DNA of 64,000 nucleotides from NCBI RefSeq assembly GCF_004135405.1, contig NZ_CP035491.1:1736001-1800000 (forward strand), in the 5' to 3' direction. The position numbers and the translations under genes are program-made. The DNA is from Agromyces protaetiae. GTDB lineage: Bacteria > Actinomycetota > Actinomycetes > Actinomycetales > Microbacteriaceae. The notes beneath the pieces were generated by a model. The model had not been told where the DNA came from, searched no databases, and saw only the letters and a list, made by a program, of their open reading frames with translations. Shown in pieces: positions 1 through 64,000 of this stretch (positions within the stretch are counted from its first letter, which is position 1; the number at the start of each line of letters is the position of its first letter).

Positions 1-110
1 TCGTGCAGGGCGCGTCCGAGGCATCCAGAGCCATGCGGCTCGTCCACGCGATCCCCGCGGGCGACCTGCTGCTCCTGCGCTACGCGCGCCTGATGCACTC
101 GCGCGCCTGA
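1..110 (+). CDS. 3' end of an unidentified protein (partial)
   Basis: The first complete codon begins at position 3 and the frame runs to a TGA at 108-110. The 35 visible residues (ending ...RLMHSRA) use G/C-ending codons like the neighbouring genes, and the frame contains an in-frame GAG GCA TCC word that is typical of genuine genes in this window. Nothing in so short a tail identifies the family. It converges on the xpb helicase gene, with a long inverted repeat between them. The start lies upstream of the window. Confidence 0.5.
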   Translation, partial: VQGASEASRAMRLVHAIPAGDLLLLRYARLMHSRA

Positions 111-124
111 CCTGCCCCCGCGCG

Positions 125-200
125 GTTTGTCGGACATCAGCGCGTTTGTCGGACATGAGAGCGTGCCCACGTCCGACAAACGCGCTGATGTCCGACAAAC
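125..200. repeat. 30-bp perfect inverted repeat built of TTTGTCGGACAT boxes
   Basis: Left arm 125-154 and right arm 171-200 are exact reverse complements, separated by 16 bases. Each arm contains the box TTTGTCGGAC twice as a direct repeat, and each box is itself nearly palindromic (TGTC-G-GACA). It lies between two convergent genes, so it could act as a bidirectional terminator. The two-box arms also resemble the double-box ends of the IS481-type elements further along, so a transposase-less (MITE-like) remnant is an alternative. Confidence 0.8.
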
Positions 201-231
201 GCCGCGGGCGCGGGCGCGGGCGTGGGCGCGG

Positions 232-1951: not shown

Positions 1952-3817
1952 TCAGCCGAGGTCTGCCGGCGCGGGCCCGACGGCTGCGATCGCCGAGAGC
2001 GGCAGCGTGCGCTCGATGTCGGCCTTGCGGTCGCGTGCGCGGAGTCTGCCGTTGGCGACGCTCGCGGGCGCGAGGAGGTAGTCGGCGGTCTGCCCGCCGG
2101 GCATGAGCACGGTGACCGTGAGCGTCTCTTTCGCGCGCGCGGCGGCTTCGAGCTGGCGGGCGAGCCAGGCCTGCTCGGTCGCCGGGCCCGACGCGACGGC
2201 GAGCAGTCGGTCGAGGAGCTCGACGATCGGGTCGGCCTTGGGCGGCGGCGGGGGAGCGCTTGCGAGCCGGTGTCGGCGGAGCCGCACGATGCGTCCGTCG
2301 GCGTCTTCTGCCGCGACCGGGTAGCGCGCGTCGGAGAGCGCCCAGAACACGACGTCGGGCGCGAAGCGCGAGAGCAGCCGGTGCTCGTCGGCGCGGCGGA
2401 GGGCGAGCGAGGACAGGGCCTGATCGACCTCGAGCGTGCCGACGAGCTGCGGGTCGTCGGACCGGATCGTCGTGCGCGCGGGCAGCTCGGACTCGGGCGC
2501 CTGCGCGACGCGCACACTGCCGAAGCGCCTCGCGGCCTCGCCGATGAGGTAGTCGAGCGGTTGCGGCACGCCCGTGAGCGAGATCGACGAGAGGAACGAG
2601 CGGATCGACTCGGCCGATTCACCCGCGGCCAAGCCGCGATTGACGGATGCCGCGCTGACGCGATAGGTGGAGGCGAGGTCGCGCGCCTCGAGGTCGGCGA
2701 ACGACCGCAGTCGTGCGTCGATCGCGGGTTCGAGCGGCCCCGGAGAGACGACCGAGAGGTCGTGCTGGAGGTACACGCGGTCGACCTGGGTCGGGAACCG
2801 CGACGCGACGTCTTCGGCGGCGCGGTCGAGTTCGCCCGCGAGCACGAGTCGACCGGCCTCGACGGGCTCGCCGCCCACCGACAGTCCGAGGGCGGCGGCT
2901 TCGTCGCGGAGCCGCTCGAGGCCCTCGTCGAGCCAGCGCCCGCCCGCCGGGTAGAGCCAGCGCACGTCGTCGCGGAACGCCGTCGCCGAGAGCGTCTCGG
3001 TGCGCCGCGCGACGAGTTCGCGGAGGGCGACGGGCACGCGGTCGCGCCAGGCCTCGGCGAGCCGCCGCCAGCGCTCGGCCGCCGACGTGAGCGCCCACGC
3101 CCCGCCCAGGTCGGATTCGAGCCAATACGCGCCGTCGCGCACGACGAGCCCCGTCTCGAGCGCGCGGCGGAACAGCTTGGGCACCTCGTCGAGTTCGACG
3201 CCCGTCGCTTCGGCGAGCCGCTTCGAGTCGGGCAGCGACAGGCCGCCCTTCGCGAGCTCGCGCGCGGGCTGCAGTCCGAGCGCCGCGACGAGCTCGGTCG
3301 CCGCCGCGACCGTCGCATACGCCGCCTCGGAGCCGAGCCGGGCGAGGATCGTGCGGTCGACTTCGTCGACGGGCGCGAGCGCGGCAGGCGCCGGGGCGAC
3401 GAGTTCGGCCGCCGTCGGCAGGTCGTCGCCGAGCCGGGGCAGCAGGCGCGCCCGCACGGCGTGCGGCACCTCGCGGCGTTCGCCCCCGACGACGAGCAGC
3501 TTCGATTCGAGGTCGGCGACGAGCGTCGCGCGATCGGCGAGGATGCGGTCGGATGCCTCGAGCCGCTTGAGTTCTCGGTCGAGGAGGTCGTCGCCGACGT
3601 CGGGCTCGCTCTCGGCGAGCGTCGCAGCGACGGCGAGCACCCCGAGATGCGGGCGATCGAGCCTGCTCAGCACGTGGTCGAGCGAGTCGTTCGTGAGGAG
3701 CGCCTCGGCGAGGTCGAAGAGGTCTTTCAGACCCGCCGGGTCGAACTCACGCGTCGCGAGCGCGCTCGCGAGCTCGTCGCGCGACATCGCGCGGAGCCTC
3801 GCGGCGAGCTCGAGCAT
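1952..3817 (-). CDS. Helicase-associated (Helicase_C_3-type) protein
   Basis: A 621-residue protein of the actinobacterial family with an XPB-like helicase-associated domain but no P-loop or DEAD/DEVH box that I can see. The first 25 residues (MLELAARLRAMSRDELASAL) begin a long helical N-terminal half; the C-terminal third (about 450-600) carries the conserved helicase-associated fold with the stretch ARYPVAAEDADGRIVRLRRHR. Homologues are commonly encoded directly upstream of XPB, so it is inferred to be a partner or regulator of that helicase. It lies 9 nt downstream of a small membrane protein gene on the same strand and is probably co-transcribed with it. The role beyond helicase partnership is unknown. 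Confidence 0.85.
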   Translation of the reverse strand: MLELAARLRAMSRDELASALATREFDPAGLKDLFDLAEALLTNDSLDHVLSRLDRPHLGVLAVAATLAESEPDVGDDLLDRELKRLEASDRILADRATLVADLESKLLVVGGERREVPHAVRARLLPRLGDDLPTAAELVAPAPAALAPVDEVDRTILARLGSEAAYATVAAATELVAALGLQPARELAKGGLSLPDSKRLAEATGVELDEVPKLFRRALETGLVVRDGAYWLESDLGGAWALTSAAERWRRLAEAWRDRVPVALRELVARRTETLSATAFRDDVRWLYPAGGRWLDEGLERLRDEAAALGLSVGGEPVEAGRLVLAGELDRAAEDVASRFPTQVDRVYLQHDLSVVSPGPLEPAIDARLRSFADLEARDLASTYRVSAASVNRGLAAGESAESIRSFLSSISLTGVPQPLDYLIGEAARRFGSVRVAQAPESELPARTTIRSDDPQLVGTLEVDQALSSLALRRADEHRLLSRFAPDVVFWALSDARYPVAAEDADGRIVRLRRHRLASAPPPPPKADPIVELLDRLLAVASGPATEQAWLARQLEAAARAKETLTVTVLMPGGQTADYLLAPASVANGRLRARDRKADIERTLPLSAIAAVGPAPADLG

Positions 3818-4587: not shown

Positions 4588-5386
4588 GATCGAGGGCGTC
4601 GCACCCGAACTCGAAGGCGTCGAGTCCGAGACATCCGTCGATCTCGAAGACGTGACCGAGGTCGAAGCCGAGACGCCCGCCGAGCCGTTCGTCGCAGACG
4701 AGGTGCTCCTCGCGTCGGCCGCGCTCGCGCAGCGCGCGCTGCTCGAGGTGACCCCGCCCGAGACCGTCGGTTCCGTCATCGGCCACATCGCCGAGGGCGA
4801 GCACGTGCTCACGCTCCTCTTCGCGGCCGATCTCGCGGGCTACCGCGGCTGGCATTGGAGCGTCACGATCGCGCGCGTCGAAGACGCCGAGCCCACCGTG
4901 CTCGAGACCGAGCTCATGCCCGGCGACGAGGCGCTCCTCGCGCCCGAGTGGGTGCCGTGGTCGGAGCGCCTCGCCGAGTACCGTGCCGCGCAGCAGGCCG
5001 CGGCCGCCGCGGCCGCCGCGGCGGGCGAGGAGTTCGGGGAGGACGCGCTCGACGACGAGGCGCTCGCAGACGAAGCCGACGACGATGCCGACGACGACGC
5101 CGAGTTCGACGACGAGGACGACGACGCCGAGACCGAGGGCGACGACGTCGAGAGCGACGACGACGACGAAGACGACGGGTTCGAAGACCACGACGCGTTC
5201 GACGCGGCGCCCGGCGAGCCCGGATTCGACACGGGCGAGGTCGACGAGTTCGGCGACGGCGCGTACGACGCCGTGGGCGTCGACGCGTTCGACGGGATCG
5301 ACATCGACGCGCTCGACGAGGTGGGCGACGACGAGTCCGACGACGGATCAGACGACGACGAGGATCACACCGAGTCCGACGGGTAA
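4580..5386 (+). CDS. DUF3027 family protein with long acidic tail
   Basis: 268 residues from the ATG at 4580, which overlaps the cold-shock stop codon; an in-frame extension upstream would lie entirely within the cold-shock gene and is rejected. Residues ~20-140 carry the DUF3027 domain, including the segment GYRGWHWSVTIARVEDAEPT and the PEWVPWSERLA motif. The last ~110 residues are mostly Asp and Glu with an alanine-rich spacer, an unstructured polyanionic tail. The function of the family is not known; the coupling to a cold-shock protein suggests an RNA-related role, which is inference. Its final 22 bases overlap the end of the convergent DUF2530 gene. Confidence 0.85.
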   Translation: MPEIEGVAPELEGVESETSVDLEDVTEVEAETPAEPFVADEVLLASAALAQRALLEVTPPETVGSVIGHIAEGEHVLTLLFAADLAGYRGWHWSVTIARVEDAEPTVLETELMPGDEALLAPEWVPWSERLAEYRAAQQAAAAAAAAAGEEFGEDALDDEALADEADDDADDDAEFDDEDDDAETEGDDVESDDDDEDDGFEDHDAFDAAPGEPGFDTGEVDEFGDGAYDAVGVDAFDGIDIDALDEVGDDESDDGSDDDEDHTESDG

Positions 5387-5680: not shown

Positions 5681-7865
<2,185 letters not shown>

Positions 7866-8876: not shown

Positions 8877-9036
8877 TGGTCGAGCGGCGGGGCATCCATT
8901 CCACGGATGCGCGCGCGCTCTTCGACCAGCGCCGCAGCAGTCTGGCGCACGTGCAACTGCGCGCACATCAGCACGCGCATCTCGTGCACCAGACACCGCA
9001 TCAGAACGGGCACTGTCCATCGGACAGGGCCCGTTC
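8877..9036 (+). promoter_or_regulatory. Possible His-rich leader ORF followed by a hairpin
   Basis: An ATG at 8877 has a GGAG Shine-Dalgarno seven nt upstream and opens a frame (MVERRGIHSTDARALFD...) with seven histidines in about 22 residues (from AHVQLRAHQHAHLVH on). The His codons are followed at once by a long hairpin at 9004-9036: GAACGGGC pairs with GCCCGTTC, and inside it CTGTCC pairs with GGACAG. This is the arrangement of an amino-acid attenuator, although the next gene is an HNH nuclease rather than a his gene. The frame stays open to 9184, overlapping the HNH start. It may be fortuitous. Confidence 0.3.
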
Positions 9037-9152
9037 CGCGTTTCCGGGCCCCGACTCGCGTGCGCCAAGCGCGCCCGCCACGAGGCATCCGCACGGTTCG
9101 TCGACCTGTTCACGCGGCTGGAAGCCATCCAGCACCGATCGAAAGGCACTCC

Positions 9153-9647: not shown

Positions 9648-9699
9648 CCCGGCGGATGCCTCGCCCGCGCGCCGCCCGCTGCGTCACGCGTCGTGATGT

Positions 9700-9842: not shown

Positions 9843-10850
9843 GTGAGCGGTGACGTGACGAGCGGCGAGCAGCCGACGAGCAGGGCAGCACGCCGCGCGG
9901 CCGAGCAGGCCGAAGCATCGCGTCGTAGTCGCACCAAGGCTTCCAAGGCGCAACTGCCGCCCGTTCCGAGCATTCCGCGGGCGCCTCGTCGGGCGGATGC
10001 CTCGGGGCGCGTGCCGGCGGCCGGTTCGGCGTCGTCCGTTGCGACGACGTTCGCGAACGCCGCGGCTCGCGCCGCTTCCGGCGCCGCGAGCGCCACCAAG
10101 CGGGTCTCCGACGCGGGCGGCGCCACGCGCCGGCACGCGCGCGTCTTCGCGACGATCCTCGTCGTGCCCGCGATCGTCGGCACCGTCGGGCTGCCGGCCT
10201 ACGCGCTCGTTCCGGGCGGCGCGGGCTTCGCGACATCCGACAAATTCAGCCTCTCCCGTTCGCAGGCCCAAGACGTCGAGGTCTCGGGGCTCGCGAGCGC
10301 GGCCGCAGTCGCGAGCGACCAGTACGACGTCACCACGAAAGCCGACATCGACAAAGCGGCAGCCGAGGCCGCGGCCAACGAGCGGTCCGCGTGGGCCGCG
10401 AGCATCGCGAACAACCCCGGCGCGTACTACACGCCCGCGCAGCAGGCTGCCGGCGACGACTACCCCTGGTGGAACGAGACCCCCGACGACTACGGTGGGG
10501 GCCTCTCGCCGCTGCGGTACTACTACCGCGAGTGCGTCGACTTCGTCGCGTGGCGTATGAACCGCGACGCGGGCGTTACGAGCGCGCCGTGGCGCTGGGA
10601 CTGGTCGAACCTCGCCTCGGGCAGCGCCTGGGCATGGGCCGACGAGTGGGTCTCGCGCGGCCGTCAGACGAGCAGCGAGCCCGTCGTGGGCGCGGTCGCC
10701 TGGTTCCCGTACAACCACGTCGCGTACGTGCAGTCGGTCAACGGCGACGGCACGGTCACGATCGAGGAGTACAACCAGCAGAGCGACCACTCGTACCACG
10801 TGCGCACGATCGACGCCGGGTCGGCGCTCTACCTGTACCCGCCCACCTGA
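9843..10850 (+). CDS. Secreted/anchored CHAP-domain wall hydrolase
   Basis: 335 residues from the GTG at 9843, chosen for its GGAGG site; an in-frame reading from 9735 would start inside the leader. Like the NlpC/P60 protein it has a long basic N-terminal region (~95 residues), a hydrophobic segment (FATILVVPAIVGTVGLPAYA), then the linker with SQAQDVEVSGL...SDQYDVTT. The CHAP domain follows from about 200: catalytic Cys in RECVDFVAW, His in YNHVAYVQSV and the acidic residue in TIEEYN. CHAP enzymes act as amidases or endopeptidases on peptidoglycan. The pair therefore places two different catalytic heads on one delivery module. Confidence 0.88.
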   Translation: MSGDVTSGEQPTSRAARRAAEQAEASRRSRTKASKAQLPPVPSIPRAPRRADASGRVPAAGSASSVATTFANAAARAASGAASATKRVSDAGGATRRHARVFATILVVPAIVGTVGLPAYALVPGGAGFATSDKFSLSRSQAQDVEVSGLASAAAVASDQYDVTTKADIDKAAAEAAANERSAWAASIANNPGAYYTPAQQAAGDDYPWWNETPDDYGGGLSPLRYYYRECVDFVAWRMNRDAGVTSAPWRWDWSNLASGSAWAWADEWVSRGRQTSSEPVVGAVAWFPYNHVAYVQSVNGDGTVTIEEYNQQSDHSYHVRTIDAGSALYLYPPT

Positions 10851-10901: not shown

Positions 10902-12012
10902 AGAACCGCATGATGCACGCGGGCGCGGGCGTCGACACGGTCGCGACGACGCTCACGGGTGCACCCTCGGCGTCGAGCGAGACGATCGCGATCGAGTCGG
11001 AGCCCTGGTCGGCGACGAGCAGATGCAGCTCGTCGGTCGTGAGCTCGAGGTCGCGTGGGTGCACCCCGCCCGTGACGACGAGCCCGACGTGCTCGAGCGT
11101 GCCCGTCTCGGGATCGAGCCGGTGCGCCTGCACGCCGTCGAGGTCGCGGTCGCCCGTCAGCACGATGCCGCCGCTCGTGATGCGGATCGCCGACGCGCCG
11201 AACCCCCGCGGTTCGACGCCCTCGCCGAGCGGAACGACGTCGATCTCTTCGTCGAGTTCGAGGTCGATGACGCTCAGCGTGCGGTCGAGTTCGTTCGCGA
11301 CGACGGCGTACTCGCCCGAGATCGCGAGGTGGCGAGGGCCCGCGCCGGCGTGGATGACGATCTCGTCGTCGTCGTCGGAGTGCGTCGGCACGCCGTCGGC
11401 GTCGAGGTGCACGACGCGCACGCGGTCGGCGCCGAGGTCGACGACGAGCACGCGGTCGCGGTCGGCGTCGACGACGACCTGGTGGGCGTGCGGGGAGAGC
11501 TGGCGGTCGTCGCGCGGGCCGCGGCCGGCGAACACGACCGTGTGGACATCGGCGTCGCCGAAACCGCCATCGCGGACCGTGCGCACTGCGAGGCTGCCGC
11601 CCGAGTAGTTGGCCGCGAGGGCGGCCCGGCCGTCGGCCGTGAAGTCGACGTGGCACGGGTCGGCGCCGATCGCGACCGGTTCGCCGACCGCGGTCACGGT
11701 CTCGCCGTCGATGCGGTGCAGCGTCAGCTCGCCGTCGGCGAGTTCGTGCACGATCGCGACGAGTCCGTCGCCGCGATGCGCGAGGAACATGGGGTTCTCG
11801 CCCACGTCGACCGGGTCGCCGATCCAATGGTCGCCGTTGTAGGCGATCTCGAACGGCCGGATGCCTGCTGCCGCCGAGCCGAGCACGCCCGCGGTCGAGG
11901 CTCCGATCCAGAAGCGTTCGGCGTACCCTTCGGGGAACGGCTCGTCCGAGGCATCCGGCATCGGAACCTCGTCCTCGCGACCCCAGCGTCCGAGCAGGCC
12001 CCAGCCGCTCAC
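10900..12012 (-). CDS. Lactonase-family beta-propeller protein (6-phosphogluconolactonase type)
   Basis: 370 residues with repeated beta-propeller blades, typical of the Pgl/YbhE lactonase family (PF10282): motifs such as GGSLAVRTV, SPHAHQVVVDADRDRVLVVD, GAGPRHLAIS and VHPRDLELT recur once per blade. The HQ/HxxxxDP-like residues around SPHAHQV match the putative active site of the family. The GTG start at 12012 overlaps the aldolase stop by four bases, so it is the last gene of a three-gene operon. In this context the likely substrate is a sugar lactone feeding the keto-deoxygluconate route; hydrolysis of 6-phosphogluconolactone is the alternative. Confidence 0.85.
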   Translation of the reverse strand: MSGWGLLGRWGREDEVPMPDASDEPFPEGYAERFWIGASTAGVLGSAAAGIRPFEIAYNGDHWIGDPVDVGENPMFLAHRGDGLVAIVHELADGELTLHRIDGETVTAVGEPVAIGADPCHVDFTADGRAALAANYSGGSLAVRTVRDGGFGDADVHTVVFAGRGPRDDRQLSPHAHQVVVDADRDRVLVVDLGADRVRVVHLDADGVPTHSDDDDEIVIHAGAGPRHLAISGEYAVVANELDRTLSVIDLELDEEIDVVPLGEGVEPRGFGASAIRITSGGIVLTGDRDLDGVQAHRLDPETGTLEHVGLVVTGGVHPRDLELTTDELHLLVADQGSDSIAIVSLDAEGAPVSVVATVSTPAPACIMRF

Positions 12013-12629: not shown

Positions 12630-13615
12630 GCGGTCTCCGAAGGGGTCAGGGAGGGGGTGCGGATGTCTCGGGGCTGCTGGATGTCTCGTGCTGCGACGAA
12701 TGCGGCCACGGCGTCGGCGTCGGGGAAGCCCTCGTAGTCGCCGGGGTGCTGCACGACCTGGGCCGCGACGAACGCCGCGAGGGCGAGCGAGTCGTCGAGG
12801 CCGAGGCCCGCGAGGCGGGCGTGGATCCAGCCGGCGTTGAACGCGTCGCCCGCGCCGACCGGGTCGACGGGGTTCGGGGCCGGATGGGCCGGAACGACGC
12901 GGCGCTCGCCGTGGTGGAGCACGAGCGCGCCGTCGGCGCCGCGCTTCACGATGACGGTCGACGGGCCGAGCGCTGCGAGCGCGTCGAGCGCCGCGTCGAG
13001 GTCGGCCTCGCCCGTGATGAGGCGCGCCTCGGTCTCGTTGCAGAGCAGTTCGTCGGTCGAGGCGAGCACACGGCGGTACTCGTTCGAGGCGTCGGCCTCG
13101 GAGATGATCGCCGGACGGAAGTTCGGATCGAAGCTCACCGTGACGCCGGCTGCCGCCGCGCGCTCGGCGGTCTCGTGCACGAGCGCCCGAGGGCCCTCGC
13201 CGATGGCGATCGCGACGCCCGTGAGGTGCACGCGTCTCGCGCTCGCCACGACCGCTTCGTCGAGGTGGCCCGGCGCGAGCTCGGTGCCCGCCGAGTCGCG
13301 ACGGTAGTAGGTGACGGCGGTGTCGTGGGCGCCACGGCGCTCCTTGAGCATGAGGGCCGTCGGGCGGGTCGCGCTGCGGCCGACGTGGTCGGTGCGGACG
13401 CCCTCGCCCGCGAGCGTGTCGAGCACGTACTCGCCCAGCGGATCGTCGCCGAGCATCGACGCCCAGACGACGTCGTGGCCGAGGCGGGCGAGCCCCATCG
13501 CGGTGTTCGCTTCGGCGCCGCCCATCGAGCGCACGTACCGGCCGCGGGCGGCCTCTTCGGGGTCGGTCGGTCGGGAGAAGCACACGAGTGCCTCGCCGAG
13601 GGTCAGAACCTCCAC
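12626..13615 (-). CDS. kdgK: PfkB-family 2-keto-3-deoxygluconate kinase
   Basis: 329 residues from a GTG at 13615, preceded by AAAGGCAGG; the in-frame stretch further upstream has no ribosome site and is excluded. PfkB signatures are clear: GGAEANTAMGLARLG near the N-terminus, and the C-terminal DPVGAGDAFNAGW with the catalytic Asp. SFDPNFRPAI and KRGADGALV also match sugar kinases. Being in one operon with KDPG aldolase it most likely phosphorylates 2-keto-3-deoxygluconate to KDPG, letting hexuronates or gluconate enter central metabolism. A LacI-type operator lies about 165 bp upstream. Confidence 0.88.
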   Translation of the reverse strand: MEVLTLGEALVCFSRPTDPEEAARGRYVRSMGGAEANTAMGLARLGHDVVWASMLGDDPLGEYVLDTLAGEGVRTDHVGRSATRPTALMLKERRGAHDTAVTYYRRDSAGTELAPGHLDEAVVASARRVHLTGVAIAIGEGPRALVHETAERAAAAGVTVSFDPNFRPAIISEADASNEYRRVLASTDELLCNETEARLITGEADLDAALDALAALGPSTVIVKRGADGALVLHHGERRVVPAHPAPNPVDPVGAGDAFNAGWIHARLAGLGLDDSLALAAFVAAQVVQHPGDYEGFPDADAVAAFVAARDIQQPRDIRTPSLTPSETA

Positions 13616-13779
13616 GGACCTGCCTTTCTTCGGCTCATGTCTGCTGCTCACGCATCCCGCTCGCGTCTCCGCGTGTCGGGTCGACGCGCCCCGCAGCAGA
13701 CTACCCGTCGGGGGCGGTGGTGCCTCTCCCGCACGGGCCGCCTGTGCGAACGAGCGCGGGCGCGAGGCATCCTGGTCGA

Positions 13780-13793
13780 TGATAACGTTTACG
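13780..13793. promoter_or_regulatory. LacI-family operator candidate upstream of kdgK
   Basis: TGATAACGTTTACG has the AACGTT core and agrees with the LacI/CcpA-like consensus TGWAANCGNTNWCA at 12 of 14 positions. It is the only AT-rich island in the ~250 bases between kdgK and the tRNA gene. No LacI-type regulator gene is in the window. Confidence 0.5.
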
Positions 13794-13866
13794 CGCCCTG
13801 ATGCCACCTGTGCGCCACCCGCCCCGCACCGACGCACCCCGCGCACTCGTTAGAATCGGAAGCCTG

Positions 13867-13941
13867 GCCTCTGTAGCTCAATGGAAGAGCAGTTCCGTCC
13901 TAAGGAAAGGGTTGGGGGTTCGAGTCCCTCCAGGGGCACCA
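13867..13941 (+). tRNA. tRNA-Arg (anticodon CCT), CCA encoded
   Basis: Acceptor arms GCCTCTG and CAGGGGC pair with one G-U; the D-arm is TAGCTCAATGGAAGAGC. The anticodon stem TTCC/GGAA encloses GTCCTAA with anticodon CCT, reading AGG. The T-arm has GGTTCGAGTCCC and the 3' CCA is encoded. It is the insertion point of a foreign island: its 3' end is repeated at 15243 and 17841. Confidence 0.95.
13921..13941 (+). repeat. Attachment repeat, left copy (tRNA-Arg 3' end)
   Basis: The last 21 bases of the tRNA-Arg gene recur at 17841-17861 with two differences, and its last 15 bases recur exactly at 15243-15257. The positions fit the left junction of an integrated element that restores the tRNA 3' end. 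Confidence 0.7.
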
Positions 13942-15242: not shown

Positions 15243-15257
15243 CCTCCAGGGGCACCA
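15243..15257 (+). repeat. Second copy of the tRNA-Arg 3' end (IS target duplication)
   Basis: An exact 15-base copy of the tRNA 3' end lies between the intact IS481 element and the decayed one. It can be read as the target duplication of the first element, which then was inserted between the tRNA and an older element. Confidence 0.7.
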
Positions 15258-44573: not shown

Positions 44574-44577
44574 CCCG

Positions 44578-48727: not shown

Positions 48728-48761
48728 GGGCAGCGCGCTCCGCGCGGCCGGATGCCCCGGC

Positions 48762-50338: not shown

Positions 50339-51676
50339 TCACTCCGGCAATCCCGTGATGAACTCACGATGGAAGCGCTCGCCGGCGAGGAGCGATTCGG
50401 TCTCCACCCACTCGTCGAGTCCGTGGATCGACGCGCGCTGCGCGGCCGTCATCGTGATCGGCGAGAAGCGGTACACGCCGTCGGTCCACAGGTGGTACCA
50501 CCGCGAGTCGGTCGCCCCGAGTTGCAGGTACGGCGCGGTCAAGGTGCCGGGGTACGCGACCGAGACGGCGCGCGCGATCGCGTCGAAGCGTTCGTCGAGG
50601 GGCGACTCGGGCGACGGGTCGTTGCCTTCGACGATCGAGACCCTCACCGCCGGGTCTTTGATCGCCTTCTTCACTCGACGCACGGTCGAGTCGACGGTCT
50701 CGCCGAACGCGATGCGCAGGTTGATGATCGCGGATGCCTCGGCCGGCAGCACGTTGTGCGCGGTGCCGCCTGCGAGCATCGTCGGCGCCACGGTGGTGTG
50801 GATGAGGGCCGCGGGCTCTCCCGGGATCTTGGCGAACACGCGCGCCGTGAGCCACGGCGCCGCGCTGAGGAGTTTGATCGCGAACTTCGCGCCGCCCGTC
50901 GCCCGTGGGGCGAACGCGCGCAGCATCGCGCGGAGCGACTTCGGCAGCTTCTTCGGGAACGGGTTCGGGTCGAGCCGATCGACGGCGCGCGCGATCCGCG
51001 CGGCGGCCGTGAGCCCCGTCGGTGCGGAGGCGTGCCCGCCGACGCTGTCGGCCGTGAGCTTGAGCGTCACCACGCCCTTCTCCCCGAGGCCGACCATGGC
51101 CGACTGCACCTTGAGGAACGGCATCGGCGCGTCGACGACGGCGCCGCCCTCGTCGAGGACCATCCACGGCTTCACGCCGCGTTCGCGCAGCGTGTCGGAG
51201 ACGGCCCGGCCGGCCTTGCCGTGGCTCTCTTCGTCGCCGCCGAAGGCGAGGTAGATGTCACGCGTGGGCGTGTACCCCGACGCGAGCAGGTTCTCGACGG
51301 CTTCCAGCACGATCAGCAGGGAGCCCTTGTCGTCGAGCGCCCCGCGCCCGCGCACGATGCCCCCTTCGATGCGGCCTTCGAACGGCGGGGCGCTCCACCC
51401 CTCGCCCTCGTAGGCGGGCACGACGTCGTAGTGCGCCATGAGGATCAGCGGCCGGCTGTCGCTGCGTCCACGCCAGCGGTACAGCAGGCCGAGGTCGCCG
51501 ATCTGCTCGAACTCGAGTTCGGCGGCGACGTGCGGGTAGAGCTCGAAGACGAGGTCGCGGAACGCGTGGAACGGAGCGAGCCCGCGCGTTTCGAGTTCTG
51601 CGGAGACGGTCTCGAGGCGGATCATCCGCGCGAGTCGTTCATCGATTCCGGGGCGCACGTCGACGGGCTGGCTCAT
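50339..51676 (-). CDS. M20/M25/M40-family metallopeptidase
   Basis: 445 residues. The zinc-dependent peptidase family is shown by LILMAHYDVVPAYEGEGW (first His-Asp metal site), GRGALDDKGSLLIVLEAVE (bridging Asp), and FGGDEESHGKAGRAVSD (catalytic Glu pair), followed by the lid domain (DSVGGHASAPTGLTA) and a C-terminal TDSRWYHL with later His. Relatives of this length act as carboxypeptidases or aminoacylases on small peptides. No signal peptide, so it is cytoplasmic. TAGGCT six nt before the ATG gives a leaderless start. Confidence 0.92.
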   Translation of the reverse strand: MSQPVDVRPGIDERLARMIRLETVSAELETRGLAPFHAFRDLVFELYPHVAAELEFEQIGDLGLLYRWRGRSDSRPLILMAHYDVVPAYEGEGWSAPPFEGRIEGGIVRGRGALDDKGSLLIVLEAVENLLASGYTPTRDIYLAFGGDEESHGKAGRAVSDTLRERGVKPWMVLDEGGAVVDAPMPFLKVQSAMVGLGEKGVVTLKLTADSVGGHASAPTGLTAAARIARAVDRLDPNPFPKKLPKSLRAMLRAFAPRATGGAKFAIKLLSAAPWLTARVFAKIPGEPAALIHTTVAPTMLAGGTAHNVLPAEASAIINLRIAFGETVDSTVRRVKKAIKDPAVRVSIVEGNDPSPESPLDERFDAIARAVSVAYPGTLTAPYLQLGATDSRWYHLWTDGVYRFSPITMTAAQRASIHGLDEWVETESLLAGERFHREFITGLPE

Positions 51677-51721: not shown

Positions 51722-52375
51722 TCAGGCGGCGACCGCCGCGGCCGGCGTGAGCAGTGCGCCGAGCTCGGCTGCGCTGAGCTCGCGACCGAAGGCCGGATGT
51801 CCGGGCTCGAGCACACGGCCGTGCGCGAGCGCGCCGCCGTCGACGGGGTCGAAGCCGATCGCGTCGATGAGCCGGGCGACGATCGCGCGCGCCTCCTCGT
51901 CGTCGCCGACGACGGCCATCGAGCTGCGGAGCGGATCGCCCGCGGGCAGGCTGTCGTCTTCCATCTCGTGATAGCCGACGTGGTTGAAGCTCTTCACGAG
52001 CCGCACGTCGGGGTTGCGTGCGGCGTTCTGCTCGCTCGTCGAGCGCGGGTCGGCGTCGACCTCGGCGATGTTGCCGTCGACGGGCGGCCAGTAGTTCATG
52101 GCGTCGACGACGACGCGGCCCGAGAGGGCGTTCCACGGGATGCTTCCGGCCTTGCCGAACGGCACGGCGACGAAGACGACGTCGGATGCCTCGACGAGCT
52201 CGTCTGCCGTCACCACACGGGCGCCGGGCGCGACGACGCCCACGAGCAGGTCGAGCGCGGTCTGGCGGGGCGAACCCGCGATGAGCACCTCGTGCCCGGC
52301 TGCGAGGAGGAGTCGCGCGAGCGCGGTGCCGACCTTGCCGGCGCCGAAGATGCCGACGACTGCGCGCTCCGTCAT
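51722..52375 (-). CDS. F420/NADP oxidoreductase-type Rossmann protein
   Basis: 217 residues from the ATG at 52375 (GAGG six nt upstream). The N-terminus AVVGIFGAGKVGTALARLLLAAGHEVLIAGS is a dinucleotide-binding Rossmann motif of the PF03807 (F420H2:NADP oxidoreductase / pyrroline-carboxylate reductase-like) family; VVFVAVPFGKAGSIPWNAL and VVDAMNYWPPVDG, then LVKSFNHVGYHEME are typical of the subgroup annotated as NADPH-dependent F420 reductase. Divergent from an LLM-type oxidoreductase gene, which makes a deazaflavin or flavin redox role plausible for both. Substrate not determinable. Confidence 0.85.
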   Translation of the reverse strand: MTERAVVGIFGAGKVGTALARLLLAAGHEVLIAGSPRQTALDLLVGVVAPGARVVTADELVEASDVVFVAVPFGKAGSIPWNALSGRVVVDAMNYWPPVDGNIAEVDADPRSTSEQNAARNPDVRLVKSFNHVGYHEMEDDSLPAGDPLRSSMAVVGDDEEARAIVARLIDAIGFDPVDGGALAHGRVLEPGHPAFGRELSAAELGALLTPAAAVAA

Positions 52376-55272: not shown

Positions 55273-56178
55273 TCAGCTCGGAGCGTGGGCGCGCGTCGTC
55301 ATGACGAGGGTCGGCGTGCCGTCGTCGTCGACGAGTTCGAGGCGCACTCGCACGTCGCCGAGGTCGGCGAGCGAGGTCGCGTGGGTGCCGCCGCAGAAGA
55401 GGCGCGCGGTGCCGCCTTCGAGGTCGGCGGCCCACTGCCGCCGGTCGGTCAGGAGGTCGCCGTCGCGTTCGATGCGGATGTCTCCGCCTCCGGCGATCCA
55501 GGTCGCGAGGGTGTCGTCGATGGATGCCTCGGCGGCACGCAGCTCGTCGGCGCCGTATTCTCCGGTGAAGACCGTCGCGTCGAACCCGGCCCGCCGCAGC
55601 GACTTGTTGAGGCGGTACCGGTCGACCGAGCCGTTCGGCTCGATGCGAGACGACGCGATCGCGGCGGCGTCGAAGTCGGGGGAGCCGAGCGGGTCGCGTC
55701 TGGGGTCTTTCGTCCAGCGATCCGCGAGCGCACGGTTGAGCGCGAGGGAGGCGAGGTGGCAGGCCGTGTGGCCGCGCGAGAGGGATGCGCGCAGCAAGGC
55801 ATCCGCTCTCGTTTCGACTTCGTCGCCTTCTGCGATCGCCGAGCCCGCGTCGACGAGGTGCGCGACGACGAACGCCCACCCCTCGGTGCCCTTGCGCACC
55901 GGGATGTCTCGGCCGAGGTGCAGGGTCTCGCCGTCGGTCGCGGCGACGATCGCGTCGAGCACTGTCAGTGCGGCGCCGTCGATGACCGTGATCACGCCCG
56001 CGTCGGCGGGCTGATCGGGCCAGCCGGCGTCGACCGGATGGATGCTCGTCGTGTCGAGGAGCACGGCGAGTCGTTCGCCGTCGTCGGTCGCGACGGGCTC
56101 GACATGCAGCACGCGCGCACGCGCGATGAGGTCGCCGGCCGGGTAGGTGACGCGCGTGCCGACGCTGGGAAGCGCCAC
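55273..56178 (-). CDS. AlaX-like alanyl-tRNA editing protein
   Basis: 301 residues from GTG 56178. The second additional domain of alanyl-tRNA synthetase is present with its zinc/catalytic motifs: SRGHTACHLAS (HxxxH) and RLFCGGTHATSLADL (CxxxH). The N-terminal ~130 residues form the beta-barrel part (VLHVEPVATDDGERLAVLLD, HPVDAGWPDQPADAG), where a cis-prolyl or GG motif usually sits. It should deacylate mischarged Ser- or Gly-tRNA-Ala. It follows a 58-codon membrane protein gene by four nt. Confidence 0.85.
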   Translation of the reverse strand: MALPSVGTRVTYPAGDLIARARVLHVEPVATDDGERLAVLLDTTSIHPVDAGWPDQPADAGVITVIDGAALTVLDAIVAATDGETLHLGRDIPVRKGTEGWAFVVAHLVDAGSAIAEGDEVETRADALLRASLSRGHTACHLASLALNRALADRWTKDPRRDPLGSPDFDAAAIASSRIEPNGSVDRYRLNKSLRRAGFDATVFTGEYGADELRAAEASIDDTLATWIAGGGDIRIERDGDLLTDRRQWAADLEGGTARLFCGGTHATSLADLGDVRVRLELVDDDGTPTLVMTTRAHAPS

Positions 56179-57592: not shown

Positions 57593-58525
57593 CTACGCCC
57601 GGGGCACGTCCGACCCCGAGGCATCCGACTCCGTCGCCCGCCGCCGACCCGCACTCCGCACCCCCAACACGATCGCGAGCACGATCGCCCCGACGACGGC
57701 GAGGAGCCCGATCCACGGCAGGAGCACGCCGAGCACGACGGCGAGCCCCGCGAAGAAGGTCATGAGGGCGTTCCATCCCGACGTGAGTCCGCTCCAGAAG
57801 TCGGCGGGCTTCGGCTCGGGCGCGGCCTCCTCGGTGACGAACTCGACCGAGAGGGTGGAGAAGTCGACCTGGTCGACGAGGAGGTCGCGCTGCTGCGTGA
57901 GGCTGTCGAGCTCGGCCTGACGCGTCGTGATCTCGGACTCGATCGTGATGAGGTCTTCGGTCGACGTCGCGCCCGCGAGCAGGGCTTCGAGCCGGTTGAC
58001 CGATTTCGCGAGCGCCTCGACGCGGGCGTCGAGATCGGTGCGCTGCGCCGTGACGTCCGTCGCGTCCTGCTGGATCGAGTCGACCCGGCCCAGCTCGCGG
58101 AGCTGCTCGATGACGCCGTCGAGGTCGTCGGAGGGAATGCGCAGGGTGAGCGACGCGCGCGCCGACTGGAAGTCGGTGCCGGGCGTCTCCTCACGGTGGT
58201 CGACGCGCCCGCCGACGCGGTCGACGATCCGCACGGTCTCGGCCGAGGCATCCACCGGGTTCTCGACCGTCAGCCGCACCCAGCCCGTCGTGACGACGCT
58301 GCGCTCGCGCACGCTCGACGAGGCATTGCCCGAACCGCCTGCGGAGTCGGCGGCGCCGCCGGGAGTCGAGCCGTCTTCGGCGAACGACTCGCCCTGGCCG
58401 GGCGCCGGCTGCGCCGGAACGTCGTAGGAGGCGGTGCTGCCGCCCGATGCCGAGCATCCGGCGAGCAGGAGGACGGCGGCGAGCAGGCCCGCCGCGGCGA
58501 TGGAGCGAGGCGTTCGACTGGACAT
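57593..58525 (-). CDS. DUF4349 lipoprotein with coiled coil and membrane helices
   Basis: 310 residues. Lipoprotein signal with lipobox LLLAGCS (Cys about 24). Residues ~70-235 form a DUF4349 domain: TGWVRLTVENPVDASAETV, IVDRVGGRVDHREETPG, LTLRIPSDDLDGVIEQL, then a coiled coil (SVNRLEALLAGATSTEDLITIESEITTRQAELDSL). The C-terminal part has two membrane helices (about 250-290), then a basic-acidic tail ending SDASGSDVPRA, again encoded by the GGATGYCYCG word. Function unknown. TACGCT six nt before the ATG is the -10 box. Confidence 0.88.
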   Translation of the reverse strand: MSSRTPRSIAAAGLLAAVLLLAGCSASGGSTASYDVPAQPAPGQGESFAEDGSTPGGAADSAGGSGNASSSVRERSVVTTGWVRLTVENPVDASAETVRIVDRVGGRVDHREETPGTDFQSARASLTLRIPSDDLDGVIEQLRELGRVDSIQQDATDVTAQRTDLDARVEALAKSVNRLEALLAGATSTEDLITIESEITTRQAELDSLTQQRDLLVDQVDFSTLSVEFVTEEAAPEPKPADFWSGLTSGWNALMTFFAGLAVVLGVLLPWIGLLAVVGAIVLAIVLGVRSAGRRRATESDASGSDVPRA

Positions 58526-58676: not shown

Positions 58677-59498
58677 TCAGTCGAAGTCGGGGTCGCGCCC
58701 CGTGCGCTCGCCCGTCTCGAGGGCCGCGATCGCGGCGAGGTCGTCGGCGTCGAGCGCGAACCCGAACACGTCGAGGTTCTCCTCGATGCGTGCCCGCGAC
58801 GACGCCTTCGGGATCACGACGTTGCCGAGCTGGATGTGCCAGCGCAGCACGATCTGCGCGGGCGTCCGCTCGTGCTTCGCGGCGAGGCGGTCGAGCGTCG
58901 CGTCGCCGAGCACACGGCCGCGCGCGAGCGGCGACCAGGCTTCGATCCGGATGTCCCGTGCCGCACCGTACTCGCGCAGCTCGCGCTGCGGCAGCCACGG
59001 GTGGAGCTCGACCTGGTCGACGACTGGCGCGACGCCCGTCTCGGCGATGAGCCGGTCGATGTGGTGCGGGTGGAAGTTCGAGACGCCGATCGACCGTGCC
59101 CGCCCTTCTTGTTGCGCCCGGATGAGGGCCCGCCACGTGTCGACGTAGAGGTCGGTCGAGGGCACCGGCCAGTGGATGAGGTAGAGGTCGACGACGTCGA
59201 GCCCGAGCTTCGACATCGACCGGTCGAACGCGCGGAGCGCCGAGTCGTACCCGTTGTCGTCCTTCCACACCTTGCTCGTGATGAAGAGCTCGTCGCGCGG
59301 CACGGGCGCGTCGCGCACGGCCTCGCCGACCTCGCGCTCGTTCTCGTAGAACGCGGCCGTGTCGAGGTGGCGGTAGCCCGCGTCGATGGCGTCGAGCGAG
59401 AGTCGGCGAGCGTCTTCGGCGGGCACCTTGTAGAGGCCGTAGCCGAGTTGCGGGATGGCGTTGCCGTCGGAGAGGGAGAGGAGGGGCGCGGGGTGCAT
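58677..59498 (-). CDS. Aldo/keto reductase
   Basis: 273 residues. The AKR tetrad can be assigned: Asp and Tyr in YRHLDTAAFYENEREVG, Lys in LFITSKVW, His in DLYLIHWPVP. Other marks are IPQLGYGLYKVP, IGVSNFHPHHIDRL and VDQVELHPWLPQREL. NADPH-dependent reduction of aldehydes or 2,5-diketo-gluconate-like substrates is known for close relatives. AGGAG precedes the ATG; the upstream MFS gene ends 14 nt before, so both are probably one operon. Confidence 0.94.
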   Translation of the reverse strand: MHPAPLLSLSDGNAIPQLGYGLYKVPAEDARRLSLDAIDAGYRHLDTAAFYENEREVGEAVRDAPVPRDELFITSKVWKDDNGYDSALRAFDRSMSKLGLDVVDLYLIHWPVPSTDLYVDTWRALIRAQQEGRARSIGVSNFHPHHIDRLIAETGVAPVVDQVELHPWLPQRELREYGAARDIRIEAWSPLARGRVLGDATLDRLAAKHERTPAQIVLRWHIQLGNVVIPKASSRARIEENLDVFGFALDADDLAAIAALETGERTGRDPDFD

Positions 59499-60832: not shown

Positions 60833-61183
60833 GTGCACGCGTTCGACGTCCTCGGAGACCCCGTCCGCCGCCGCATCCTCGAGATCCTCGCGAGCGGCGA
60901 GGCTTCGGCGGGCGACGTCGTCGACATCGTCGGCGGCGAGTTCGGCATCACGCAGCCCGCCGTCTCGCGGCAACTCCGAATCCTCCGCGAGACGGGGTTC
61001 GCGACCGTCCGGCCCGACGGCGCCAGGCGCCTGTACGCGCTCGATCCCACGGGCGTCGACGAGGCATCCGACCTGCTCGACCGCTACCGCGCCCGGTGGA
61101 CGGGCGCGCTCGCCGCCTTGCACACCGAAGTCGCCCGCGGCCGCCGCATGCGTCGCGGCGAGAACGACAGGAGCACCCCATGA
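60833..61183 (+). CDS. ArsR/SmtB-type winged-helix regulator
   Basis: 116 residues from GTG 60833. Winged helix with MHAFDVLGDPVRRRILEILASGEASAGDVVD, the recognition helix TQPAVSRQLRILRETGFATVRPDGARRLYAL and a C-terminal helix. No metal-binding cysteines are visible, so it is of the non-metal subgroup often paired with SRPBCC (AHSA1) proteins, as here: the next gene overlaps the stop by four bases. It probably represses this two-gene unit through the operator at 60799. Confidence 0.92.
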   Translation: MHAFDVLGDPVRRRILEILASGEASAGDVVDIVGGEFGITQPAVSRQLRILRETGFATVRPDGARRLYALDPTGVDEASDLLDRYRARWTGALAALHTEVARGRRMRRGENDRSTP

Positions 61184-61710
61184 CCGTCTCGAGCACCATC
61201 ACCCCGAGCGCCGACGGCGGCCTCGGCTTCCTCCTCGAACTCGACGAGGTCTACGCGACCGACCCCGCCGACCTGTGGCACGCGATCACGACGCCCGAGC
61301 GGCTCGCCCGATTCATGGCGACCTACCGCGGCGACCTCCGCCTCGGCGGGCGCTGGCAGGCGCTCACGGTCGACGGCGAGCTCTACTGCGACGGCGAGGT
61401 CACGGCGTGCGATGCGCCGCGCACCTTCACGACGACGTGGCAGGTCGTCGGCGAGCAGCCGACACTCCTGACGGTGACGCTCGAACCCTATGGCGCCGGC
61501 ACGCGCCTCAGCCTCCGGCACGAGCACGTCACGCGACTCGACTACGGTCCCGGCTGGCACACCTACCTCGAAAGCCTCGCGTGGCATCTCGCCGATCCGG
61601 GCGCAGCCAAGGACCGCGAGCGGTTCGGCCGCCGGTTCGCCGAGCTCGAGCCCGGCTACGCCGCGCGCTTCGCGGCGGTCGGCGCAGGCCCCGAGACATC
61701 CGAAGCCTGA
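61180..61710 (+). CDS. SRPBCC (AHSA1-like) protein
   Basis: 176 residues, a START-like helix-grip fold with a ligand-binding cavity. Marks are LDEVYATDPADLWHAITTPERLARFMATYRGDLRLGGRW, EVTACDAPRTFTTTWQV, and GTRLSLRHEHV with GWHTYLESLAWHL. Translationally coupled to the ArsR-type regulator (ATGA overlap). The ligand is unknown; in similar pairs the protein responds to small hydrophobic compounds or stress. Confidence 0.9.
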   Translation: MTVSSTITPSADGGLGFLLELDEVYATDPADLWHAITTPERLARFMATYRGDLRLGGRWQALTVDGELYCDGEVTACDAPRTFTTTWQVVGEQPTLLTVTLEPYGAGTRLSLRHEHVTRLDYGPGWHTYLESLAWHLADPGAAKDRERFGRRFAELEPGYAARFAAVGAGPETSEA

Positions 61711-61726
61711 CGCGCAGCGTCGCTCC

Positions 61727-64000
61727 TCAGCCCGCGAGTGCCTTGCGGATGCGCTGCACCGACACCGACTCGGCCGCGCGCAGCTCTTGCGCGAAGAGCG
61801 CGATGCGCAGCTCTTCGAGCATCCACCGCACGCGCACGAGGCGTTCGTCGGCGACCGGGTCCGTGCCCGCCGGCAGCGGGATGCGCCCGCCCTCGGCCTC
61901 GAAGACCTTCGCCGCGTCTTCGTACTCGGTCATGAACCGCCGGTCGCGGCCGGGATCGGCCTGCAGCTTCTTCACGCGCATCGTGATGCCCTCGAGGTAG
62001 CGCGGCAAGTGCCGGAGGCGTTCGAGGCCCGTCGCCGACACGAATCCCGCGGGCACAAGTGCCTCGAGTTGGGCGCGCGCATCGGCGAGCGGCGACATGA
62101 GCGTGAGGCTCGCGGCCTTCGAGATCGCCTGGTCGGCTTCGCGGGCGGCTTTCAAGATGCGGGCGACGAGCGCGACGGTGTCGAACATGCGGTCCATGAC
62201 GGCCGCGCCGACGGCGTCGCGGACGGCGTCGAACTCCGCGCGCGTCCAGATGAGACCGTCGGGATGCCTCGCCCGCAGCTCTGCGTCGACGATCGCCGCG
62301 AGGCAGTCGTCGAGGAGCGCACGCGGGCCCGAGTAGGCACTCTGCGCGAGCCGCAGCTTCTCGTCGTTCGAGAGGTGCTCCTGCACGTAGGCGACGGGCG
62401 ACGGCGTCGCGAGCACGAGCAGACGACGGATGCCTCGGCGCGACGCCCGATCGCGCTCCTCCGCCGTGGCGAGCAGCCTGAGCGACACCGACCCTGGCGT
62501 GCCGCCGTCGTCGACGAGCGCCGGGTACGCGCGGATGACGTTGCCGGCCTGCCGAGTGTCGACGTGCGCAGGCAGCCGGTCCCACTCCCACGTTGTGATC
62601 CCCGTCTTCTCCGCGAGTGCGGGACCGGCCGGCACGCTCGCGCTCGCCGCGGCGACATCGGTCGGGCCTGTCGTCGCAGTGGCGCTCCCACGGCGCGCAC
62701 TCGAGGCATCCGCCCCGCCGAACGTGCGCGCGACCGCCTGCCCCGCGCGCTCGGCGAGCCGCGCCTGCAGCGCCGCGAGGCTCTTGTCGCTGCCGACCGC
62801 GCGCCCGCGCTCGTCGACCGCGCGGAACGTGACGCGCAGGTGCGGCGGCACGCGCTCGAGGTCGAAGTCGCTCGGGTCGACGGGCGCGAAGGTGAGCTTT
62901 CGGATGGTCCGCCCGACGACGGCCGCGAACGGGTCGCGCGTCGCGCCCGACTCGGGCCCGGCGGGCAGTTCGTCGGAGATCTTCGCGGCCCAGTCGGCGG
63001 CGGGCACGACCTGGCGGCGCAGCACCTTCGGCAGCGTCCGCAGCATCGCGGTCACGAGTTCGTCGCGGAGTCCCGGCACCTGCCAGTCGAAGCCCGTGGC
63101 GTCGAGCCGGGGCAGCAGCACGAGTGGAACGATGACGGTCACGCCGTCGTCGTCGGTACCGGGCTCGAACCGGTAGGCGAGCTTGAGCGTCTGATCGCCC
63201 TGCTTCCAGCGGTCGGGGAAGCCGTCACCGCGGCCGTCGCCGTCATCGTCGACGAGGTCGGCGCGCACCATAGTGAGCAGGTCGGGCGCCTCGCGGAACG
63301 CCCCGCGCCACCAGCGCTCGAACGCGCGCGAATCGGTCGCTGCGGCATCCACGCGCGCGTCGTAGAACGCGAAGACGGCTTCGTCGCCAGACAGGATGTC
63401 ACGCCGACGCGTGCGCTCCTCGAGCTCGCCGAGCGACCGGCGGAGTTCGCGGTTCTTCCGCACGAATCCGTAGACGCGCTTGTCGAGGCGACCCCAGTCC
63501 CAGTCCTCTTCGACGAGCGCGTGCCGCACGAAGAACTCACGCGCGAGCGCGCGGTCGATGCGCGCGAGCTGGATGCGCCGCTTCGGCACGATCGGCACGC
63601 CGAACAGGGTGACCTTCTCGTCGGCGACGGCCGCGCCCTGCCGGCGCTCCCACCGCGGCTCCGACCACGTGCGCTTCGCGAGCGATCCGGCGAGCGGCTC
63701 GGCCCACGCGGGGTCGATCGCCGCATTCATGCGCGCGAACAGCCGGCTCGTCTCGACGAGTTCGGCGCTCATGATCGCCTGCGGCGGCTTCTTCGCGAGC
63801 GCCGATCCGGGGAACACGACGAATCGCGTGCCGCGCGCGCCGAGGAACTCGGCGGCCTGGCGGCGGCCCTTGCGCTCGGCCTCGCGCGCGTTGCCTGCCC
63901 CACCGCGCCCCGAGCCGGTCTTCGCGTCGTCGCGCAGGCCGATGTGCGACAACAGCCCGGCGAGCAGCGCGCGGTGGATGCCGTCGGGGTTCGGCGCGCC
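61727..64000 (-). CDS. hrpA: HrpA-like ATP-dependent helicase, C-terminal part (partial)
   Basis: 758 codons are visible and the frame continues past the right edge of the window. The beginning matches the region after the helicase core (GAPNPDGIHRALLAGLLSHI, typical of HrpA/DEAH helicases), followed by RQAAEFLGARGTRFVVFPGSAL in the OB-fold region and then the long DUF3418 domain that is special to HrpA: DWGRLDKRVYGFVRKN, DKSLAALQARLAERA, ITTWEWDRLPAHV, YPALVDDGGTPGSVSLRL. HrpA helicases act on RNA and have been linked to rescue of stalled ribosomes. An insertion of low complexity (SSARRGSATATTGPTDVAAAS) lies mid-way. The DEAH motifs themselves are outside the window. Confidence 0.92.
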   Translation of the reverse strand, partial: GAPNPDGIHRALLAGLLSHIGLRDDAKTGSGRGGAGNAREAERKGRRQAAEFLGARGTRFVVFPGSALAKKPPQAIMSAELVETSRLFARMNAAIDPAWAEPLAGSLAKRTWSEPRWERRQGAAVADEKVTLFGVPIVPKRRIQLARIDRALAREFFVRHALVEEDWDWGRLDKRVYGFVRKNRELRRSLGELEERTRRRDILSGDEAVFAFYDARVDAAATDSRAFERWWRGAFREAPDLLTMVRADLVDDDGDGRGDGFPDRWKQGDQTLKLAYRFEPGTDDDGVTVIVPLVLLPRLDATGFDWQVPGLRDELVTAMLRTLPKVLRRQVVPAADWAAKISDELPAGPESGATRDPFAAVVGRTIRKLTFAPVDPSDFDLERVPPHLRVTFRAVDERGRAVGSDKSLAALQARLAERAGQAVARTFGGADASSARRGSATATTGPTDVAAASASVPAGPALAEKTGITTWEWDRLPAHVDTRQAGNVIRAYPALVDDGGTPGSVSLRLLATAEERDRASRRGIRRLLVLATPSPVAYVQEHLSNDEKLRLAQSAYSGPRALLDDCLAAIVDAELRARHPDGLIWTRAEFDAVRDAVGAAVMDRMFDTVALVARILKAAREADQAISKAASLTLMSPLADARAQLEALVPAGFVSATGLERLRHLPRYLEGITMRVKKLQADPGRDRRFMTEYEDAAKVFEAEGGRIPLPAGTDPVADERLVRVRWMLEELRIALFAQELRAAESVSVQRIRKALAG

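Follow-up and report, generated by a model that had tools for sequence, protein, structure and literature searches.

A dispersed short word with lineage dialects in Agromyces protaetiae and related Microbacteriaceae, a probable footprint of a DNA uptake sequence

A short word, CGGATGNCNCG, is scattered over both strands of the genome of Agromyces protaetiae and recurs in lineage-specific forms among other Microbacteriaceae. It was noticed in a stretch of 64,000 nucleotides of this genome (assembly GCF_004135405.1, contig NZ_CP035491.1, positions 1,736,001 to 1,800,000 of the forward strand; hereafter the window). In all probability it marks the genome as the trace of a dialect-forming DNA uptake sequence that is maintained by biased uptake and recombination. 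We infer preferential uptake, a receptor and the resulting drive from the abundance, strand symmetry, dialects, turnover and placement of the word and from the competence genes, all of which were observed directly.

In this genome the full word mostly takes the form CGGATGYCYCG. Among the top 11-mers in 464 kb were CGGATGCCTCG and CGGATGTCTCG, and the 12-mer CGGATGCCTCGG was found in 83 copies, any single change at positions 2–6, 8, 10 or 11 bringing the count down to between 0 and 3. Position 7 of this 12-mer could be C (83) or T (45) and position 9 could be T (83), C (35) or G (17). Nine bases of the word are fixed, with two variable ones among them; it is not a palindrome, and little information is left in its flanks beyond about 12 bases. 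The initial annotation had described it as GGATGYCYCG, a form that is slightly short, as C in front of it and G behind it are preferred as well.

A hand count had given about 60 copies in the window. By program, the 9-mer GGATGYCYC was found 69 times (34 on the plus and 35 on the minus strand) and the 10-mer GGATGYCYCG 57 times (28 and 29), and the genome-wide excess was larger than had been claimed: the whole genome of 3,683,091 bases holds 2909 copies of the 10-mer (1455 forward and 1454 reverse), as compared with 3 + 3 for the reversed pattern. The assumption that base composition would yield only a few copies also held against a fourth-order Markov model, under which 1.5 copies of GGATGCCTCG, 1.2 of GGATGCCCCG and 0.6 of GGATGTCTCG were expected in the window and 35, 10 and 9 were found. 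In a sample of 515 kb, consisting of the window and 23 further stretches of the same genome, the four variants of GGATGYCYCG occurred 417 times against 28.0 expected at the same order (14.9-fold), and copies with one mismatch 440 times against 323, which gives a ratio of exact to one-mismatch copies of 417:440. The observed counts were thus nowhere near equality with the fourth-order model. When synonymous codons were permuted within genes, taken from our own simple and uncurated codon-model calls, the 291 copies in genes dropped to a mean of 23.3 (standard deviation 4.4; highest of 100 shuffles 36). As both controls lie far below the observed counts, the over-representation stands. At gathering scores, Rfam found two tRNAs and nothing else in the window, so the word is not explained by an RNA family. 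A mobile element as its source was rejected, since the flanks are unconserved and a repeat finder showed no longer repeat among the families shown.

With dnaA at contig position 847,786 as reference for the origin, 215 copies in the 515 kb lay on the leading and 202 on the lagging strand (p 0.56), so that the comparison with replication suggested in the initial annotation revealed no bias. Density did not follow the distance from oriC either (Spearman -0.05, p 0.80). Strand symmetry disfavours both Chi and FtsK-type sites; an FtsK orienting site of the KOPS type fits poorly, as a strong leading-strand bias would be expected of it. A Chi-like hotspot, at which a helicase-nuclease (AdnAB or AddAB) would read the word during resection and switch to recombination, had been among the first suggestions and is unlikely. 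Chi sites resemble the word in being present in many copies, genome-wide and in species-specific variants; they are linked to recombination, and their function depends on number and not on place, as the turnover described below requires. Chi words are oriented with replication and are about 5 to 8 bases long, whereas the word is longer, lacks such an orientation and is more enriched. In 100 kb of E. coli K-12 taken as a yardstick, Chi (GCTGGTGG) occurred 33 times against 12.7 expected (2.6-fold) and was split 22:11 by strand, which itself reached only p 0.08. RecC was found in none of 24 genomes (AddAB and AdnAB were not searched for). That Chi differs between species is described in passages of PMC3630211.

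Across 299 Microbacteriaceae genomes, counts of GGATGYCYCG range from background to 2909, and the two strands are nearly equal wherever the word is frequent. The highest counts belong to the own genus (2909, 2113, 1606, 932, 732 and 659 in six genomes, or 169–790 per Mb), and in a phylum-wide table of densities read by eye none of the 390 genomes of other families (396 across the phylum) reached 40 per Mb. In three of the six genomes of the genus, CGGATGNCNCG was counted 3204, 3103 and 3317 times (reversed controls 42, 29 and 56); in the same three species GGATGYCYCG falls from 2909 over 2113 to 732 and the CCG form GGATGCCGCG rises from 381 over 693 to 2246. In a sister species (G142; G and L numbers are our own labels for genomes and loci) 78 of 129 sampled sites have CCG. 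Other genera of the family prefer GGATG(A/C)C(C/T)CG, in many cases preceded by AGC (G052), GGATG(T/C)CGCG (G089), GGATG(C/T)CACG (G282) or CGGATGCCG (G063 and G168), named Cryobacterium loci carry AGCGGATGCC, and in G079 all of T, A, C and G occur at one variable place. Except where whole-genome counts are given, these dialect tables rest on 84–515 kb per genome or group; for most genera the sequences of named relatives, none longer than about 22.8 kb, did not suffice. Grouped by genus and species, the dialects follow lineages and keep a constant core. The proposed comparison with related genera showed a core shared within the family as dialects and a word at background in some relatives.

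The coding copies of CGGATGNCNCG exceeded the codon-shuffled control in each of eleven word-bearing genomes (e.g. 44 against 4.7 and 29 against 1.6, and in the weakest of them 24 against 6.0); the corresponding values were 4 against 2.5 in G110 and 7 against 2.7 in G014. Compared with the reversed control over whole genomes, the word was at background in G051 (12 against 38) and G110 (54 against 51) and weakly raised in G014 (116 against 29). Many small genomes were at background (G005, G010, G013 and G015), and two small genomes were above it (G038, 61 against 3; G112, 60 against 8). Two other repeats came up in the genomes of relatives: TTGAGCCTGTCGAAA-type words with 12–19 copies in 140 kb of G168 (L180-L186), perhaps a dispersed intergenic element, and TACAGCCCTA with 13 copies and none expected in G142 (L157-L165), perhaps one tandem array.

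G110 carries another standout word, AGGAGGCGC. In all six genomes of its genus the unrelated word AGGAGGCGCG was present in 513 to 952 copies with nearly equal strands; it was not raised in 16 other genomes searched, and CGGATGNCNCG was at background in the three genomes counted of this genus. As a control of the method, 60 kb from each of six genomes of other families were scanned alike, which yielded a strong word in G383 and a hint of the same word in G437, the latter within the noise of the others. This word, GTATGCCG, occurred 147 times against 8.3 expected and 111 times against 8.0 in 260 kb each of G383 and G437, and its copies in genes (119 and 79) stood against 8.6 and 11.0 after codon shuffling. 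Three copies were found in 60 kb of G602, a member of the same family. The tails of GTATGCCG differ between the two genomes, which belong to another family of the order (L199-L204, L211-L230). Chances seem about even that dialect-forming uptake words occur widely in this actinobacterial order (CGGATGNCNCG and its variants in one family, with AGGAGGCGCG as a complete substitute in a single genus, and GTATGCCG in a second family) and are read by a Flp/Tad pilus and not by a type IVa pilus.

The dialects also bear on a bias of mutation or repair, e.g. a methyltransferase with short-patch mismatch repair, or gene conversion, which would produce a word without function. HIP1 of cyanobacteria, a comparable word that is very abundant throughout its lineage, has been linked to methylation, and the Y positions of the word are C/T transitions. 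However, HIP1 is palindromic and the word is not, nine fixed bases stand around two variable ones, the dialects differ by transversions too (G079), and the genus with AGGAGGCGCG and the family with GTATGCCG would need other repair specificities. We regard such a bias as improbable.

Single sites are mostly not kept between species. In aligned stretches of more than 300 bases (63, 43 and 46 kb; 78–79% identity), 7 of 24, 3 of 23 and 5 of 22 sites of A. protaetiae were also sites in three sister species, numbers which are small. The overlap fractions of 0.26, 0.16 and 0.28 compare with 0.18, 0.17 and 0.23 for 400 permuted control words of the same letters, so sites are made and lost at close to the control rate. 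Five sites are shared with G142, and at four of them A. protaetiae has T as the second variable base where G142 has G, its own dialect letter. The places of the word thus turn over while the counted genome totals stay level.

Such shifts in position from one sister species to the next speak against an architectural site, another of the initial suggestions. In a more tolerant form, in which the word is bound by an abundant chromosome-organising protein and selected for number and rough spacing but not for place, this explanation is rather unlikely. The high density along the chromosome, the lack of a trend with distance from oriC and the larger number of copies between genes would agree with it. 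Regular spacing was not seen, though, the change of dialect within one genus would require thousands of sites to track a changing and presumably important protein, and some relatives, whose chromosomes have to be folded as well, show the word at background level. Protein binding or a repair bias could fix the number of copies without fixing their place, but both predict a wholesale replacement of dialects less readily than a DNA uptake sequence does.

In the 515 kb, 291 copies lie fully in called genes, 125 outside and one across a gene edge, which corresponds to 0.65 per kb inside and 1.95 per kb outside genes. Gaps no longer than 600 bases carry 3.85 copies per kb where the neighbouring genes converge, 2.21 where they lie in tandem and 2.11 where they diverge; longer gaps hold 10 copies in 12.8 kb. 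Of the 291 coding copies, 233 fall into two of the six frames and mostly encode Asp-Ala-Ser, Asp-Val-Ser, Glu-Ala-Ser or near variants. This preference explains the otherwise rare codons (GCA, TCC and those of Asp-Ala-Ser) that the word had been said to force, a claim that was right in sense. Spacings below 30 bases are in excess (47 against 10.2), and 13 of 68 close pairs are tandems at exactly 18 bases; one called gene in the window (31465-32214) holds copies in tandem at this spacing. The stretch 19800-19870 (71 bases), which contains an inverted pair of copies, folds with -37.6 kcal/mol (z -5.1), and none of 200 shuffles was as stable.

The strong stem of this pair between convergent genes, the tandem copies and the favoured Asp-Ala-Ser and Glu-Ala-Ser could be taken for signs of an element that acts in transcription or as RNA, e.g. 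a terminator, or of an effect of codon pairs or protein repeats. Such an origin of the word is very improbable: genes hold comparable numbers of sense (129) and antisense (162) copies, which largely refutes it, and codon shuffling removes more than 90% of the coding copies.

A machinery that could act on an uptake sequence is present. ComEC was found in all 24 family genomes examined, and in A. protaetiae comEA, encoding SLBB and helix-hairpin-helix domains, adjoins comEC (L028). A tad locus (L027) next to topA, tmk and holB-like genes consists of tadA, a single tadB/C-type gene, a gene for a 54-amino-acid Flp-type pilin (DUF4244) and two TadE-like genes, and a second pair of TadB/C-type genes was recognised by family match only at 2,186,962-2,188,379. 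Micrococcus luteus, which belongs to the same order, requires comEA/EC for transformation. Both of its two tad loci are needed for transformation, and one of them, tad-2, has a fused tadB/C and flp as in the locus here, a likeness drawn from the paper on these loci (PMC4322843). Its main text uses none of the terms 'uptake sequence', 'sequence specific' and 'DUS'. A type IV pilus as uptake machine was rejected for want of a correlation with the word: A. protaetiae (G000) has a PilC-type protein that T2SSF matches strongly in two places, and matches of this strength are missing from the word-rich genomes G079, G240, G052 and G057. The search for the fastest-changing competence protein as a pointer to the receptor was likewise abandoned, as nothing was singled out between G000 and G079, with TadBC (53%) and the TadE-like protein (58%) differing most and Flp (94%) least.

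According to the uptake-sequence explanation, a surface component of competent cells would bind free DNA with a preference for CGGATGNCNCG; ComEA or one of the proteins of the Flp/Tad competence pilus is the most likely component. DNA bearing the word would be drawn in more often via ComEA/ComEC and then be recombined into the chromosome. As fragments with the word would be over-represented in uptake, recombination would rebuild and spread it on both strands as far as the function of the encoded proteins allows, and a drift of receptor specificity at the two N positions and in the flanks may give rise to dialects per genus and species.

Abundance, symmetry, intergenic placement, dialects, turnover and the competence genes agree with this explanation; even spacing and depletion in atypical genes were not clearly seen, and several further points weigh against it. 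The receptor is at present a set of candidates (TadE, a TadE-like protein and ComEA), and preferential uptake in this genus is likewise deduced from the pattern of the word. Competence genes are near-universal in the family and the word is not, so that its occurrence cannot be foretold from the machinery: G051, G110, G005, G010 and G015, for example, have ComEC and the Flp pilin, with the word at background. The DUF4244 pilin, found in 163 of 169 genomes, shows the same for the pilus. Spacing is no more even than random (coefficient of variation 1.13). In four of ten other word-bearing genomes the density outside genes is below that in genes (clearly in G089, G282 and G063, slightly in G143), in G383 convergent intergenic DNA is poor in the word of that genome, and in G437 the strands are split 46:65. 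Of the three stretches folded in the window, two hardly exceeded their shuffles or did not exceed them at all: the pair at 43,781-43,811, inside a called gene, does pair, but 18 of 200 shuffles were as good, and the remaining stretch was at chance level. Codon-atypical genes are not depleted, the least typical fifth having 0.66 copies per kb, about the mean, and the lowest density (0.32 per kb) being found in the most typical fifth (genes below 100 codons were dropped). Two members of the family with small genomes, Rhodoluna and Aurantimicrobium from freshwater, are naturally transformable (PMC11577799), which counts in favour of the explanation; many small genomes of the family lack the word, so competence need not come with it.

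The comparison with islands had a divided outcome. The absence of the word from the foreign island at 13.9-18.9 kb of the window was confirmed, with no start of a 10-mer between 13,763 and 19,810, and a second motif-free region was found in L017 of the same genome, but codon-atypical genes as a class were not depleted and were given up as a proxy for foreign genes. The gap at the island is the seventh longest motif-free stretch among those sampled. Genes with a third-position GC content (GC3) below 0.85 hold 7 copies in 17 kb, as compared with 279 in 424 kb.

Table 1. Features of the window; positions count from its first nucleotide, and copies are those of GGATGYCYCG.
Feature	Position	Strand	Remark
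copy	17..26	-	outside called gene
copy	3551..3560	+	
copy	4627..4636	-	
copy	5930..5939	+	
copy	7432..7441	-	
copy	8888..8897	-	outside called gene
copy	9081..9090	-	outside called gene
copy	9654..9663	+	outside called gene
copy	9995..10004	+	outside called gene
copy	11947..11956	-	
copy	12661..12670	+	next one at 18 nt
copy	12679..12688	+	
copy	13763..13772	-	last before island, outside called gene
motif-free island	13773..19809		with IS481-type transposase, GC 63.5%
copy	19810..19819	-	first after island, between convergent genes
inverted word pair	19831..19863		14-bp stem in the gap where two called genes converge; location and form like those of a terminator
copy	19832..19841	+	left arm of hairpin
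copy	19853..19862	-	right arm of hairpin
copy	21499..21508	+	
copy	22279..22288	-	
copy	23210..23219	-	outside called gene
copy	23746..23755	+	
copy	27631..27640	+	
copy	31468..31477	+	
copy	31507..31516	-	tandem at 18-nt spacing
copy	31525..31534	-	tandem at 18-nt spacing
copy	31543..31552	-	tandem at 18-nt spacing
copy	33089..33098	-	
copy	33434..33443	+	
copy	34329..34338	+	
copy	34400..34409	-	outside called gene
copy	37036..37045	-	
copy	37369..37378	-	
copy	37633..37642	+	
copy	39873..39882	+	outside called gene
copy	39909..39918	+	outside called gene
copy	40805..40814	-	
copy	40838..40847	-	
copy	41435..41444	+	
copy	43781..43790	+	left arm of inverted pair inside called gene
copy	43802..43811	-	right arm of pair starting 43781
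copy	44949..44958	-	
copy	45489..45498	+	
copy	47214..47223	+	outside called gene
copy	47853..47862	-	
copy	48750..48759	+	between convergent genes
copy	48801..48810	-	
copy	50732..50741	+	
copy	52184..52193	+	
copy	55522..55531	+	
copy	55902..55911	+	
copy	57617..57626	-	
copy	58244..58253	-	
copy	58949..58958	+	
copy	61060..61069	-	
copy	61692..61701	-	
copy	62262..62271	+	
copy	62428..62437	+	
copy	62702..62711	-	

The island (window 13939-18900) adjoins a tRNA gene and contains the IS481-type transposase (13986-15170, minus strand), a diverged repeat of the transposase region around 15256-15875, and an AAA ATPase (15985-17541) that matched PDC-M28C of PADLOC (2e-13); two further genes in it had no PADLOC match. 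A sequence of 37 bases follows directly after both tRNA genes of the window (13939-13975 and 44575-44611, 92% identical), and its first copy borders the island. The motif-free region of L017 extends from 3.9 kb to the end of that stretch; GC is lower at 11500-20000 (genes 0.62-0.67), and one protein there looks sigma-factor-like by eye. Elsewhere in the window, a protein of 1250 amino acids (36086-39838) matched PDC-S37 of PADLOC (4e-96) and showed weak matches to an MTES_1575-type nuclease and to AAA below the Pfam cut-offs, and a long hairpin at 111-214 contains TTTGTCGGACAT. GTCCGACAAA had 9 copies in 400 kb with almost none expected.

To our knowledge, uptake words are confined to Gram-negative families such as Pasteurellaceae and Neisseriaceae. 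Uptake signal sequences (USS) of Pasteurellaceae such as Haemophilus are evenly spaced. The word is not, and its information falls off within about 12 bases; like USS, it is abundant and has a short fixed core with weaker flanks, the consensus in H. influenzae spanning 29 bases with less conserved outer regions (PMC1939737, in excerpt). Short self-specific uptake words have been reported for both families (PMC7811141). The features seen here agree with those of the DNA uptake sequences (DUS) of Neisseriaceae, as far as the available parts of PMC3630211 describe them, with about 1900 to nearly 6000 copies, frequent inverted pairs, lineage dialects and exact to one-mismatch ratios of 1:1.15 and 1:1.45 in two example species. 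The word resembles them in its 10–12 bases, thousands of copies, similar mismatch ratio, inverted pairs and lineage dialects around a fixed core. It differs from them in sequence and phylum, and DUS are read by the minor pilin ComP, of which no counterpart was identified here, where the pilus is likely Flp/Tad. The statement that no such word had been described agrees with the literature searched (few subscription journals, no preprints), where no uptake word for the family or the phylum appeared among the papers listed. Among the matches listed for a search with the word itself, the titles look like chance primer matches.

If such words are read by Flp/Tad pili across the order, sequence-specific self-recognition in transformation would have evolved in Gram-positive bacteria and would act there as a species barrier. 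The origin and purpose of uptake words are still debated, and an independent case in another phylum and with another pilus, in which dialects shift within one genus, would make both testable by comparison. It would also supply a predicted tag for the transformation of strains that are hard to engineer and would predict partners of gene exchange among species.

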